Source: Candidatus Competibacteraceae bacterium (GTDB taxonomy: Bacteria > Pseudomonadota > Gammaproteobacteria > Competibacterales > Competibacteraceae). Taken from it: a stretch of 42,034 bases of DNA. This document shows, piece after piece, positions 15,494-31,083 of the stretch (the stretch's first letter is position 1; each line of letters opens with the position of its first letter). A program made the position numbers and the translations under genes. Below the pieces are notes generated by a model. The model made no database searches. It was not told the origin of the DNA and saw only the letters and a list, made by a program, of their open reading frames with translations. The stretch is from positions 1 through 42,034 of the forward strand of contig JAGRHQ010000008.1 of assembly GCA_020444905.1 (NCBI GenBank). The letters run 5' to 3'.

Positions 15494-15597
15494 GCTTTTT
15501 GATGCTCATGGAACAATTTGCAAGTAATCGCGGTCATTTGGCAAGCGATTGACCTGATCATTGCTGTTTTTCTGCTTGATTGATTTTCCTGCCCCCC

Positions 15598-15673
15598 ACG
15601 TCGAGGGGCGCTGCAGCGGTCATCGACCGTCAGGCTCGGCGTGGCATGGCTTTCATAAGCCAACGGCGCCCGT
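15598..15673 (+). ncRNA. S-adenosylhomocysteine (SAH) riboswitch
   Basis: The leader of ahcY carries the conserved SAH riboswitch core: GAGGGGCGCTGCAGCGG, then CAGGCTCGG, then AACGGCGCCC. P1 pairs GGGCGC (15606-15611) with GCGCCC (15666-15671). P2 forms CGGTC/GACCG (15617-15621 with 15625-15629). The diagnostic pseudoknot pairs CGAG (15602-15605) with CTCG (15635-15638). A variable hairpin TGGCTT/AAGCCA (15647-15662) sits in the 3' linker. SAH binding is known to raise expression of the downstream gene. The element ends ~23 nt before the ahcY ATG, with GGAG (15687-15690) free when the pseudoknot forms. Confidence 0.92.
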
Positions 15674-15696
15674 TCATTCCAATACTGGAGAACGCT

Positions 15697-22852: not shown

Positions 22853-23217
22853 GATTTTCTCCCTCGGCTTTTTGTATCCGTTGTTAGCGGCACTCTTCAG
22901 AGTTTAGCGGGTTATACCACCGGTTCCACCCCTTGACAACAAGGGTTTTGCAAATCTGCCCGTTGATTTTATCGCGAAGATGCAAGCAGGCTGATTACCA
23001 GAGCAAACAAAGTCTTAACGATTTAGTTCAACACATTATGTTGTATATGACTGGATCGTGAACCACAGTATGTAGAAAAACAGGCCTGTATCCTCTAAAA
23101 TTTCCAGTCCCGAATCACACTCAGCATCGCTCGGAGGCGATTCTTCTCAATTCAATACGTCAACCGTTCCTGATTCTAAGCGTGACTCATCAACATTTTT
23201 CCAGAGATCCCGGGGTT
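22853..23217. other. 365-bp divergent intergenic region with nrdJ control sites
   Basis: No gene is seen. The right half holds two NrdR-box-like sites (23031-23078). A TTGACA hexamer at 22933-22938 lacks a partner -10 at 17 bp. No cobalamin riboswitch box (GCCACTG) is seen, although the downstream enzyme uses adenosylcobalamin. Confidence 0.55.
23031..23078 (+). promoter_or_regulatory. Tandem NrdR-box-like sites upstream of nrdJa
   Basis: Two sites resemble the NrdR palindrome acaCwAtATaTwGtgt: ACACATTATGTTGTAT (23031-23046, about 13 of 16 positions) and CCACAGTATGTAGAAA (23063-23078, core CAGTATGTAG). Their spacing is 32 bp start to start, three helical turns, as is usual for NrdR box pairs. 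NrdR is the nucleotide-sensing repressor of ribonucleotide reductase genes, and the sites lie 140-190 bp upstream of nrdJa. Confidence 0.6.
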
Positions 23218-25377
23218 ATGAAAACCGCTCATTTGCAACCTGTTGACTGTCCGACCACCGCTGCCGCCGTGCCGATGCAGCCAGCCTCCTGGGATATCTG
23301 GGACAAGAAATACCGATTGAAGGCCAAGGATGGGCGTCCGATTGACGAAACTATCGATGGCACCTACCAAAGAGTTGCCCGGGCGCTGGCCGAAGTCGAG
23401 GCAACCCCGGAATTGCGCGAACACTGGTACGAAAAATTCTTGTGGGCCTTGCGCCATGGCGCAATTCCAGCAGGACGAATAATTTCCAATGCCGGCGCCT
23501 GGGAGCACAAACCCGCAACTTCGACCATCAATTGCACGGTATCCGGCACGATTCTGGATTCTATGGACGATATCCTGCGCAAAGTGCATGAAGCAGGACT
23601 CACATTAAAAGCGGGTTCTGGCATCGGTTATTGCTTCTCCACGCTGCGTCCGCGCGGCGCTTATGTATCTGGAGCCGGAGCCTATACCTCCGGCCCGCTG
23701 TCGTTCATGGATATTTACGACAAGATGTGTTTCACCGTCTCCTCGGCGGGTGGACGGCGCGGCGCGCAGATGGGAACTTTCGATGTGGGCCACCCCGATG
23801 TCATGGAATTCATCCGCGCCAAGCGTGAAGCGGGACGTTTGCGACAATTCAATCTGTCGCTGCTGATCACCCGCGAATTCATGGAAGCCGTCAAGAACAA
23901 TCAGGACTGGGTGTTGGCGTTCCCAATGATGGCTCAAGAAGCTGAGCAGGATCGGACCGATCTTGATGACGCTGCGCAAATTGTCTGGCGCGAATGGCCA
24001 ACTGCTCAGGGATTGGTGGTTAACCAAAAAGGCCAGGTTGCTTGCAAAATTTATCGAAAAATTCCCGCTCGACGTCTGTGGGACGTGATTATGTCCTCAA
24101 CTTATGATTATGCAGAACCGGGATTCATTTTGATTGATGAAGTCAATGCAATGAATAACAATTGGTTCTGTGAAAATATACAAGCATCAAATCCTTGCGG
24201 CGAACAAATGCTCCCTCCTTATGGATCTTGCTTACTCGGTTCGATCAATTTAACCCAGTTCGTGGAGAATCCCTTTACCCAAAAAGCCCGCTTTAACTGG
24301 GATACCTATCGCCAAGTGGTCGCCATCTTCACCCGAATGCTGGATAACGTGGTGGAAATCAATGGCCTGCCACTGGAACAGCAGCGCCAGGAGATTTTAA
24401 GTAAGCGCCGGCATGGCATGGGTTATCTCGGACTTGGTTCGACATTGACCTTGCTCGGTATGAAATATGGTTCGCCGGAATCCCTGGCTTTCACCGAGGA
24501 AGTCACTCGGGAAATGGCGCTCGTCGGCTGGCGGGTTGCGCTGGAACTGGCGCAGGAAAAAGGTCCGGCGCCTATTCTCGAACAGGAATTTACTATCACT
24601 GCTGATCTGCTGCGCAAGCGCCCGGAGATGGCGAACGATGGCATCCGCGAAGGGGATTGCGTCAAGGGCAAGGTTCTACACGCCCGCTATAGTCGCTACA
24701 TGCAGCGGATTGCGGAAGTTGATCCTGATCTGGTCAAAGCACTTGCTGAAGTAGGCGCACGGTTTACCCATCACACCTCCATCGCCCCGACCGGCACCAT
24801 CGCTCTGTCACTAGCTAATAACGTCAGTAATGGCATTGAACCCAGCTTCGCCCATCATTATTCACGCAACATTATCCGCTCCGGGAAAAAATCCAAGGAA
24901 AAAGTCGATGTATTCTCTTTTGAATTATTGGCCTACCGACACCTGATTAATCCCGGAGCTATTCCAGAGGCCCAATCGCTTGAGGAACAGTTACCGGATG
25001 CGTTCATTACCGCCGATGACGTGACGCCCAGGCAGCATGTGGATATTCAGGCTGCCGCGCAAAAATGGATCGATTCCAGCATCTCCAAAACCGCCAACGT
25101 TCCAACTGATTTCCCTTACGAGGATTTCAAGGACATCTATCTTTACGCCTACGAGCAGGGACTCAAAGGCTGCACGACCTTCCGCTTTAACCCCGCCGCC
25201 TTCCAGGGCGTGTTGGTCAAGGAACAAGATCTAGCGAATACCCACTACCGGTTCGTGTTGGAGGATGGTTCGGCAATCGAAGTGCAGGGCAACGAAGAAG
25301 TTGAGTATGATGGTGAAATTCATACGGCGGCGAATTTGTTCGACGCTATTAAGGAGGGATATTACGGAAAATTTTGA
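23218..25377 (+). CDS. nrdJ: Adenosylcobalamin-dependent (class II) ribonucleotide reductase, large part
   Basis: This is the catalytic part of a split class II reductase (NrdJa type), which reduces ribonucleotides to deoxyribonucleotides with adenosylcobalamin and without needing oxygen. Active-site cysteines appear in TSTINCTVSG (C106) and NPCGEQ (C327); the phosphate-binding APTGTIALSLANN is present. It ends DGEIHTAANLFDAIKEGYYG-KF, the natural end of NrdJa proteins, so the split is genuine. The ATG at 23218 gives 719 aa; a GTG at 23182 would add 12 residues and cannot be excluded, since neither has a strong ribosome-binding site. The second part, nrdJb, lies 498 bp downstream beyond a structured spacer. 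The upstream NrdR-like boxes suggest repression when dATP is high. Confidence 0.95.
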   Translation: MKTAHLQPVDCPTTAAAVPMQPASWDIWDKKYRLKAKDGRPIDETIDGTYQRVARALAEVEATPELREHWYEKFLWALRHGAIPAGRIISNAGAWEHKPATSTINCTVSGTILDSMDDILRKVHEAGLTLKAGSGIGYCFSTLRPRGAYVSGAGAYTSGPLSFMDIYDKMCFTVSSAGGRRGAQMGTFDVGHPDVMEFIRAKREAGRLRQFNLSLLITREFMEAVKNNQDWVLAFPMMAQEAEQDRTDLDDAAQIVWREWPTAQGLVVNQKGQVACKIYRKIPARRLWDVIMSSTYDYAEPGFILIDEVNAMNNNWFCENIQASNPCGEQMLPPYGSCLLGSINLTQFVENPFTQKARFNWDTYRQVVAIFTRMLDNVVEINGLPLEQQRQEILSKRRHGMGYLGLGSTLTLLGMKYGSPESLAFTEEVTREMALVGWRVALELAQEKGPAPILEQEFTITADLLRKRPEMANDGIREGDCVKGKVLHARYSRYMQRIAEVDPDLVKALAEVGARFTHHTSIAPTGTIALSLANNVSNGIEPSFAHHYSRNIIRSGKKSKEKVDVFSFELLAYRHLINPGAIPEAQSLEEQLPDAFITADDVTPRQHVDIQAAAQKWIDSSISKTANVPTDFPYEDFKDIYLYAYEQGLKGCTTFRFNPAAFQGVLVKEQDLANTHYRFVLEDGSAIEVQGNEEVEYDGEIHTAANLFDAIKEGYYGKF

Positions 25378-25405
25378 AACGAAGATTCGAAGGCAAAAAT
25401 GAAAA

Positions 25406-25435
25406 AGCGAACTCCAGTTAGCAGCTGGGTTCGCT
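25406..25435 (+). repeat. Strong hairpin 29 bp after nrdJa
   Basis: AGCGAAC (25406-25412) pairs with GTTCGCT (25429-25435), and CCAG (25414-25417) with CTGG (25425-25428), with one bulged T. That is eleven base pairs. No T-run follows, so it is more likely an mRNA 3'-end structure or part of the larger RNA than a terminator. Confidence 0.65.
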
Positions 25436-25448
25436 CGAAATGTTGGTT

Positions 25449-25541
25449 ACGCATGTGGCATGAACCGGGAGGCATGCCGCTCCTTGCAAGGAGTCTTTTC
25501 ATATAGCTACTTACAGTGCCCTTTCAAAGTAGCTCATGCGT
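25449..25541 (+). ncRNA. Cloverleaf-like structured RNA candidate
   Basis: Four helices tile 93 nt almost without gaps. A closing 7-bp helix (ACGCATG 25449-25455 with CATGCGT 25535-25541) encloses three hairpins: 25456-25462 with 25473-25479 (six Watson-Crick pairs plus G-U), CTCCT/AGGAG (25480-25484 with 25489-25493) and an 8-bp AGCTACTT/AAGTAGCT (25505-25512 with 25527-25534). It is not a tRNA: the T-loop and anticodon-arm signatures are missing. I cannot match it to tmRNA, RNase P RNA, 6S RNA or a cobalamin riboswitch. A structured RNA named for nrdJ genes exists in RNA motif surveys as I recall, and should be compared. Confidence 0.5.
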
Positions 25542-25564
25542 GGACAAGCTGCAAGGCCTAATCT

Positions 25565-25642
25565 CCTCCCGGAAAGGAGGTGATCGATGTGGTACTTCGA
25601 CGACAGTTGAAAGCTGCGCCACCGGGATTCCGGTGGGTCTTT
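25565..25642 (+). promoter_or_regulatory. Possible leader-ORF/attenuator upstream of nrdJb
   Basis: AAAGGAGGTGATC (25573-25585) is complementary to 13 nt of the usual 16S rRNA 3' end, far longer than a normal ribosome-binding site. Six bases after its GGAGG lies ATG (25587), opening a 7-codon ORF MWYFDDS ending at TGA (25608-25610). The GGAGG is paired in a hairpin CCTCC/GGAGG (25565-25569 with 25576-25580). Eight bases after the ORF a perfect 7-bp stem CCACCGG/CCGGTGG with GATT loop (25619-25636) is followed by GTCTTT. The order leader ORF, hairpin, U-rich tail resembles transcription attenuators. No proof of translation exists. Confidence 0.35.
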
Positions 25643-25739
25643 ACCCGTTACAGACGAGTGAAGAATTCGACCCGAGTACTTGACGCTTGGGATTACGGGT
25701 ATGAGTGCTGGGCTTTCTTAGTCAGGACTTAAAATTAGG

Positions 25740-25768
25740 TGGCGGGGCGCAATCCCCGCCATTTTCTT
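25740..25768 (+). terminator. Rho-independent terminator before nrdJb
   Basis: TGGCGGGG (25740-25747) pairs perfectly with CCCCGCCA (25754-25761), loop CGCAAT, followed by TTTTCTT. It ends whichever transcript covers the structured spacer, and implies nrdJb has its own promoter or depends on read-through. Confidence 0.85.
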
Positions 25769-25875
25769 GTCTGACGATCTTATCTTCGGTTTTGCTTACT
25801 ACATCCAAGCTACAATTAGCAAAAATGTAGCTTCAAAAAAACCGTATGAGATTAATCACTGCATACCGAATCCCC

Positions 25876-26553
25876 ATGACCGTCAAAATCGACAAAAAAA
25901 TTATTGCCTACAGCGTAGTCAAACCCGATGACATTCCAGCGATCACACCCACGCTGGCCGTGCAGCACATGCATGAGAGCCTGGAACGACCAGACGTTCT
26001 GCCCGGCGCGACCTACAAGGTCAAGACGCCGCTGTCTGACCATGCGCTATACATCACTATAAACGACATCGTGCTCAACAAAGGCACCCCGGACGAAATT
26101 CGGCGTCCCTTTGAAATCTTCATCAACTCCAAGGCGATGGAGCATTTCCAATGGATCGTTGCCCTGACCCGCATCATTTCAGCCGTCTTCCGCAAGGGCG
26201 GCGACGTCACGTTCCTGGTGGAGGAAATGCGTTCGGTATTCGACCCAAAGGGCGGCTACTTTAAAAAAGGCGGCAAGTACATGCCCTCGCTGGTCGCGGA
26301 AATCGGCGACGTCATCGAATCCCACCTGCGCTCCATTGGCATGTTGAAAGAAGACGGTCCTGACGAGCATCAGCGTAAAATGATTGAAGAGCAGCGCATC
26401 AAATACGAAACCGGCATGAAGGCGGTCGAAGAAGCAGGCGTGAGTACTTTTCCTCCTGAAGCCACGCTCTGTGGCAAATGCCAAACCAAGGCGGTGATCG
26501 TCATGGACGGTTGCCTGACCTGCCTGAACTGTGGCGACTCCAAGTGTTCCTAA
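25876..26553 (+). CDS. nrdJb: Class II ribonucleotide reductase, small C-terminal part (NrdJb)
   Basis: A 225-aa protein matching the separately encoded C-terminal part of class II reductase (TSCPD-type region), as in Pseudomonas NrdJb. It starts MTVKIDKKIIAYSVVKPDD; an ATG at 25846 would add ten residues without a better ribosome-binding site. Features are NDIVLNKGTPDEIRRPFEIF, the repeated Gly/Lys segment GGYFKKGGKY, and a C-terminal zinc-ribbon-like CGKC...CLTCLNCG, which in family knowledge contributes the cysteines that re-reduce the active site. It must work with NrdJa. The 498-bp structured spacer and terminator upstream suggest separate control. Confidence 0.88.
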   Translation: MTVKIDKKIIAYSVVKPDDIPAITPTLAVQHMHESLERPDVLPGATYKVKTPLSDHALYITINDIVLNKGTPDEIRRPFEIFINSKAMEHFQWIVALTRIISAVFRKGGDVTFLVEEMRSVFDPKGGYFKKGGKYMPSLVAEIGDVIESHLRSIGMLKEDGPDEHQRKMIEEQRIKYETGMKAVEEAGVSTFPPEATLCGKCQTKAVIVMDGCLTCLNCGDSKCS

Positions 26554-30663: not shown

Positions 30664-31020
30664 TTACTTACGGATTGCCCGGCGCGGCCCTTTGCGCGTC
30701 CTGGCGTTGGTGCGAGTGCGCTGGCCGCGAACGGGCAGACCACGCCGATGACGCAGCCCCCGGTAACAACCCAAATCCATCAATCGCTTGATGCTCATCG
30801 ACACTTCGCGGCGCAGATCGCCTTCCACTGCATACTTGGCCACTTCGGCGCGCAAAGTATCCACCTGAGCTTCATCCAGATCTCGAATCTTGCGATCCGG
30901 TGGAACCTGGGCCGCCGCACAGATGGATTTGGCGCGAGTCGGGCCAATGCCATAAATAGCCTGCAACGCGATCACCGCGTGCTTGTTAACTGGGATATTA
31001 ATGCCTGCAATACGGGCCAT
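30664..31020 (-). CDS. rpsM: 30S ribosomal protein S13
   Basis: A 118-aa S13 starting [20 protein letters not shown], with the helix-hairpin motif [14 protein letters not shown] and the Arg/Lys-rich tail [21 protein letters not shown] in two parts. It sits in the 30S head and bridges to the 50S subunit. GGAGGAG precedes the ATG. It is the first gene of the alpha operon, with a possible leader structure upstream. Confidence 0.98.
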
Positions 31021-31043
31021 GCCTTGCTGCTCCTCCTACCTCA

Positions 31044-31083
31044 CCGGGTCTTCGCTACGCAAAGAAGCGGAAATTTAACCCGG
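31044..31083 (-). promoter_or_regulatory. Possible S4-responsive leader structure of the alpha operon
   Basis: In the 95-bp gap between rpmJ and rpsM, CCGGGT (31044-31049) pairs with ACCCGG (31078-31083), enclosing CTTC/GAAG (31050-31053 with 31064-31067). In E. coli the rpsM leader folds into a pseudoknot bound by S4. The position is the same, but I cannot show the pseudoknot here. Confidence 0.3.

Follow-up and report, generated by a model that had tools for sequence, protein, structure and literature searches.

A predicted pseudoknotted leader RNA in a mobile small-protein cassette between nrdJa and nrdJb

In a 42,034-nucleotide stretch of Candidatus Competibacteraceae DNA (the window), nrdJa and nrdJb, which encode a split class II ribonucleotide reductase, are separated by a spacer that holds a wandering phage and plasmid cassette. 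The structured RNA found there heads a small protein gene of this cassette and does not belong to reductase control. We propose that positions 25406–25764 form a mobile cassette whose leader controls translation of the small protein through two alternative, incompatible pairings, a reading to which we assign a probability of about two in three. The leader is a structured RNA of this leader-plus-gene cassette, with a pseudoknot that is not represented in Rfam. It is a candidate structured RNA family with no entry in Rfam, and covariation supports it directly.

Results and Discussion

The nrdJa-nrdJb spacer

Both reductase genes lie on the forward strand, nrdJa, the catalytic half, at 23221–25377 (TIGR02504, 577 bits; its longest reading frame begins at 23182) and nrdJb, the second polypeptide, at 25876–26553. 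A preliminary description of the spacer had reported a cloverleaf of four helices and a linker at 25449–25541, and these elements are present in the sequence: 25449–25455/25535–25541 (7 bp), 25456–25462/25473–25479 (7 bp with a U-G pair), 25480–25484/25489–25493 (5 bp), and 25505–25512/25527–25534 (8 bp), with an 11-nt linker at 25494–25504. The minimum free energy fold of the isolated 106 nt is close to the cloverleaf and only moderately better than chance (z −2.0; 8 of 200 shuffles are equally good); the 398-nt spacer taken in full has clear structure (z −4.5; 0 of 100 shuffles). The cloverleaf topology breaks down in relatives, as its closing helix has all seven pairs in the window, five of seven in genome G034, and three of seven in G005, and judged by these alignments it is not a conserved element. 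The expected preservation of the helices by compensating changes thus fails for the closing helix, and it is instead the P2 and P3 helices and the pseudoknot described below that are kept. The clear terminator placed 3′ of the stems is confirmed as an intrinsic terminator following the small gene (25737–25764, forward strand; 21 of 21 cells paired in three species), and the further stems are accounted for by an overlooked 47-codon reading frame with a Shine-Dalgarno site.

That the RNA is conserved, structured, and no known housekeeping RNA was borne out by negative Rfam and ARAGORN scans of the spacer, ARAGORN finding 0 tRNA or tmRNA genes. The covariance-model search that the preliminary description had recommended gave no Rfam 15 match at the spacer, and the suggestion made there that the RNA may be the surveyed nrdJ motif is not supported, there being no match to that motif by cmscan in the window at the gathering score, nor in the spacer even at E ≤ 10. 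No Rfam 15 family matches the leader at the gathering score, either in the window spacer or in 20 relatives, and permissive searches with two leaders returned chance-level matches only. Readings as a tRNA, tmRNA, CRISPR, or known riboswitch are unsupported by Rfam or ARAGORN. Short matches to the spacer in other genomes of the family (21–51 nt; L007–L015) lie mostly within other genes and look like chance. A further hairpin, AAGCUACA..UGUAGCUU, lies between the terminator and nrdJb (25809–25837), and is kept in G034 and absent in G005. Elsewhere the window contains an SAH riboswitch (15597–15678, forward strand; 62.6 bits, well over the gathering score) and an Alpha operon ribosome binding site (30988–31073, reverse strand; 38.2 bits, just above the cut-off of 38).

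A small protein gene

The small reading frame at 25589–25732 (forward strand; GTG start, 47 codons, MVLRRQLKAAPPGFRWVFTRYRRVKNSTRVLDAWDYGYECWAFLVRT) is an unannotated in-frame part of a frame spanning 25580–25732, and is preceded by the Shine-Dalgarno site AAAGGAGG (25573–25580, forward strand), which is conserved in alignment A7 and lies 8 nt from the GTG. When the window is compared with G034 and G005 (contig L033, Candidatus Competibacteraceae), substitutions in the frame are mostly at third positions, with dN/dS of 0.09–0.21, and the start codon, GTG in the window, is ATG in G005; by this substitution pattern it is a coding gene under purifying selection. Its relatives, a profile match, and an AlphaFold2 model bear on the same point. 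The protein matches PHROG 33859 over residues 8–47 (E 2.3e-15) and has no match in Pfam, NCBIfam, PADLOC, or PDB; an enterobacterial phage member matches the same PHROG at E 2.2e-39. AlphaFold2 confidently predicts a small, compact beta fold (mean pLDDT 88) for this basic and aromatic protein, not a membrane helix, and no structure in PDB or BFVD matched it at E < 0.9. Its probable role is that of an accessory effector or a regulator in mobile elements. Members of PHROG 33859 often go unannotated because they are only about 45 residues long, and the RNA offers a handle on their function, compensatory mutants being simple to construct.

Architecture of the leader

The leader begins with a terminator-like hairpin, H1 (25406–25435), which has no U run after it and 23 of 33 cells paired in the three species; in the phage copies it comes immediately after the stop codon of the preceding gene. 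Hairpin P2 (25457–25478; GGCAUG/CAUGCC) has 17 of 18 cells paired in the three species, and in 17 leaders of the E. coli phage type 107 of 119 cells are paired, with compensating changes. Its loop carries the 5′ strand of the pseudoknot, CCGGGAGG (25465–25472), a perfect 8-nt complement of 25565–25572 that covaries across relatives. The P3 domain (25482–25556) is closed by 25482–25488/25550–25556 and encloses P4 (25505–25512/25527–25534); P3 has 21 of 21 cells paired in the three species and P4 21 of 24, and P3 covaries in wider relatives (CUUGG/CCAAG, CUUGC/GCAAG, CUAGC/GCUAG). Last comes the Shine-Dalgarno hairpin, CCUCC/GGAGG (25565–25580; 15 of 15 cells paired), whose masking pairing, 25565–25569/25576–25580, can form in all three species and gives the site a pairing probability of about 0.99. 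All of these elements are on the forward strand. The 5′ arm of the hairpin overlaps the pseudoknot 3′ strand CCUCCCGG (25565–25572), so the two pairings are mutually exclusive. From alignment, the conserved parts of leader and cassette are P2, the loop pairing, P3, the Shine-Dalgarno hairpin, and the terminator.

Leaders of this design fall into two structural classes, in which the pseudoknot strand lies either in a hairpin loop (the window and the E. coli phages) or in a bulge of a long hairpin (alignment A4), the second having the conserved core residues GAAUGG..CCAC..UAGUGGAUUC..UCAA. We found no description of the leader in the literature searched, from which subscription papers were mostly absent.

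Covariation of the pseudoknot

The pairing CCGGGAGG/CCUCCCGG of the window is replaced in relatives by CCAAGAGG/UCUCUUGG, CCCAAGGG/UCCUUGGG, and GGGAAGC/GCUUCCC, and in further relatives by UGGAGAGC/GCUCUCCA, AGAGCACC/GGUGCUCU, UGGACGC/GCGUCCA, and more; the distance from pairing to start codon is similar despite these differences in sequence. In a permutation test on 60 dissimilar leaders true partners scored 17.4 versus 13.8 for permuted ones (z 10.6; 0 of 5000), where the exact z is somewhat optimistic, the windows having been chosen after examples had been seen, but slid and shuffled controls give a clear result. In these 60 leaders control windows gave 1.3–1.4, with one exception at 4.6 that contains other helices of the RNA, and ordinary gene leaders gave z of 0.6–2.5. 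When 24 leaders of the second structural class are simply aligned with MAFFT, with no fitting to the structure, the pseudoknot helix is 84% paired, with changes on both sides in five of seven pairs, and covariation over the whole structure is 0.324 versus 0.190 when shuffled (0 of 500). We note also that the P2/pseudoknot region is 97% identical, against 77–85% for nrdJa. Taken as comparative evidence, these data indicate that the pseudoknot is conserved and covarying.

Covariance model R2 recovers leaders absent from its training, exactly upstream of the gene, with E-values from 4.5e-9 to 2e-3, and a model of the window class detects further leaders outside the set from which it was built. 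Among 369 gammaproteobacterial genomes model R1 found one strong match, at the known locus, and one weak match (E 0.006), and a leader apart from the gene was not clearly seen in that scan.

Distribution of the cassette

The gene family occurs in about 150 loci, 70 of them in reference genomes and at least 80 in viral contigs, and a leader of the same design lies upstream in most of them. Relatives sit in prophages, phages, and plasmids, including small ColRNAI-type plasmids of Klebsiella and E. coli, Acinetobacter and Alteromonas plasmids, and a lambda-like phage; 15 of 5426 E. coli genomes carry the gene, mostly unannotated. The upstream neighbor is usually an ImmA/IrrE-type or repressor-like gene: among 100 non-redundant loci an IrrE/ImmA-type metallopeptidase was found by motif search in at least 44, and in 21 the neighbor ends in an LPxDLTxxEA motif. 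One metallopeptidase neighbor matches Pfam M78 and PADLOC capP, and among neighbors seen only once are an AAA ATPase and, at locus L057, a protein with a CAP12/PycTIR-type TIR domain at its end, which is a candidate defence effector. The leader starts right after the stop codon of the neighbor, with the small start codon mostly 135–170 nt further on.

Within the bacterial family itself the spacer could be measured in 22 genomes with both reductase genes. Thirteen have 24–39 nt and no element, three contain this cassette, five have a 362–559 nt spacer with a different small reading frame (VFVNEYSRFRLGKWERVRAHWRSPPSR), and one has a 69-nt spacer resembling a remnant of the second cassette. None of the phage, plasmid, or other-genome relatives tested adjoins nrdJ. 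The short spacers in most genomes and the location of relatives away from nrdJ argue that the cassette visits this site, and is not a reductase control element kept by descent. The gap in the split reductase is thus a recurrent landing place within one bacterial family, having received two small-protein cassettes and retained one apparent remnant. Pseudomonas aeruginosa requires both NrdJa and NrdJb in vivo (PMC4520616), and an insertion with a terminator between their genes should therefore carry a cost.

The second small reading frame occurs in the same spacer, with a structured leader of its own, at loci L185, L194, L195, L197, L198, and L216, and its leader has a putative pseudoknot of 10–11 bp (GCAACCGAGC/GCUCGGUUGC). 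These leaders too show long-range pairing (z 3.7; 9 of 20000). Models R1 and R2 do not recognize them, so the link between the two leader types is one of architecture and pseudoknot only. Unannotated plasmid relatives of the second frame (L225, L226, L227) lie near toxin-antitoxin genes (VapBC, DUF1778-GNAT, and Xre/MbcA/ParS), and L195 (genome G026) has an additional GC-rich inverted-repeat stretch of about 200 nt between this frame and nrdJb.

A proposed translational switch and its alternatives

We suggest that the cassette is self-contained, consisting of leader RNA, a small gene of the PHROG 33859 family, and terminator, and that it came into the nrdJa-nrdJb spacer from the phage and plasmid pool. 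In the off state CCUCCCGG would pair with GGAGG and hide the Shine-Dalgarno site; in the on state it would pair with the P2 loop CCGGGAGG as a pseudoknot and leave the site free, the state being chosen by some signal that might be a partner RNA, the small protein itself, a host factor, or a ligand. We infer that the switch works, that the pseudoknot is its 'on' state, and that a signal selects between states. The pseudoknot as the open state is the likeliest reading by analogy with the timP mRNA, in which mutually exclusive folds occur and the pseudoknot is required for translation and excludes the fold masking the ribosome binding site (the timPR type I toxin-antitoxin locus, RyfA; PMC11228461). 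Of 65 leaders with strong pseudoknots, 64 have the 3′ strand located 5′ of the Shine-Dalgarno site, and the strand overlaps an anti-Shine-Dalgarno helix in 40 and has no such overlapping helix in 25. In the window the pseudoknot duplex is worth −16.0 versus −7.4 kcal/mol for the Shine-Dalgarno hairpin, but it has to span the P3 domain; when the pseudoknot strands are kept unpaired the comparison is −60.5 versus −52.2 kcal/mol before a pseudoknot loop penalty, and is indicative only.

The pseudoknot 3′ strand in the window ends 3 nt before GGAGG, and a duplex so placed could also hinder ribosomes. This is the starting point for an opposite reading, rather unlikely in our estimation, in which formation of the pseudoknot represses translation: stacked immediately 5′ of the Shine-Dalgarno site, it would block the 30S subunit until a signal opens it. 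Several translational riboswitches repress by pseudoknot blocking, and in L240 and L231, of the second small-protein family, the strand contains the Shine-Dalgarno site itself, which would close the site and keeps this reading in consideration; yet in the window and in the 40 overlapping leaders the pairing strand is the anti-Shine-Dalgarno arm, so that forming the pseudoknot unmasks the site. Control may alternatively be autogenous, with the small protein binding its own leader and shutting off or permitting its own synthesis, which we regard as unlikely but deserving of real weight. RNA and protein travel together, as the R1 scan saw the leader only beside the gene save for the one weak extra match, and a basic, aromatic protein with a confidently predicted small beta fold would suit such a role; against it, leaders of this design also head the genes of an unrelated small protein family, and the searches of PDB and BFVD did not match the fold to any RNA-binding protein. 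It is improbable that the leader is a metabolite riboswitch governing the small gene: the conserved core residues of the second structural class (A4), the pseudoknot beside the Shine-Dalgarno site, and the class-wide conservation would be expected of one, but there is no Rfam match, the topology differs between the classes, and the controlled gene is not metabolic.

Two further readings detach the RNA from the small gene. We think it quite improbable that the element regulates nrdJb in cis or sets the balance of the reductase, as suggested earlier. The cassette does lie within the nrdJ operon of three genomes, with a different cassette at the same site in five more, and a terminator between the halves could lower nrdJb transcription; nevertheless, the distribution described above speaks against such a role, and the structure abuts the Shine-Dalgarno site of the small gene, some 290 nt before nrdJb. 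An independent non-coding RNA with an incidental reading frame would account for strong structure across the whole spacer, but it is scarcely credible given the third-position substitutions and low dN/dS, the GTG/ATG exchange at the start codon, and a protein family that can still be recognized at about 40% identity although the DNA has diverged.

A broader and more tentative idea, which we hold to be possible and somewhat against the odds, is that there is a new class of mobile translational-switch leaders defined not by sequence but by architecture, with a hairpin loop or bulge pseudoknotted to a strand before the Shine-Dalgarno site. Two or more families of tiny basic proteins, unrelated to each other, would have such leaders in phages, plasmids, and nrdJ operons. 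The leaders might respond to infection, DNA damage, or a partner RNA by releasing a small effector, and would then make up a new RNA-gated module of mobile elements.

Relationship to known systems

The small gene belongs to PHROG 33859, which is a bare protein cluster with neither a leader RNA nor a function attached. As in the SAM-II and preQ1-II riboswitches, which have pseudoknots adjacent to the Shine-Dalgarno site, the pseudoknot strand lies directly upstream of or at that site, although the leader has no covariance-model match. The nrdJ RNA motif (Weinberg et al. 2017, in Rfam), as cited in PMC8388888, resembles the RNA described here only in being associated with an nrdJ gene; it gives no covariance-model match, and the window RNA heads another gene inside the operon. 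Many phage cassettes lie directly 3′ of an IrrE-type metallopeptidase gene, recalling the ImmR-ImmA, DdrO-PprI(IrrE), and CapH-CapP modules, whereas the window copy has no such partner and other copies have varied ones (LPxDLTxxEA proteins, TIR, AAA ATPase). The timP mRNA differs in that TimP is a toxic inner-membrane protein with an antisense RNA, TimR, whereas the window protein is predicted to be a basic small beta fold. Nonetheless, timP is likewise a small-protein mRNA with a structure-masked ribosome binding site, a long-range pseudoknot in a mutually exclusive fold, and tight control of translation (PMC11228461), and the window leader has both a Shine-Dalgarno site masked by conserved local structure and a mutually exclusive, covarying long-range pseudoknot.
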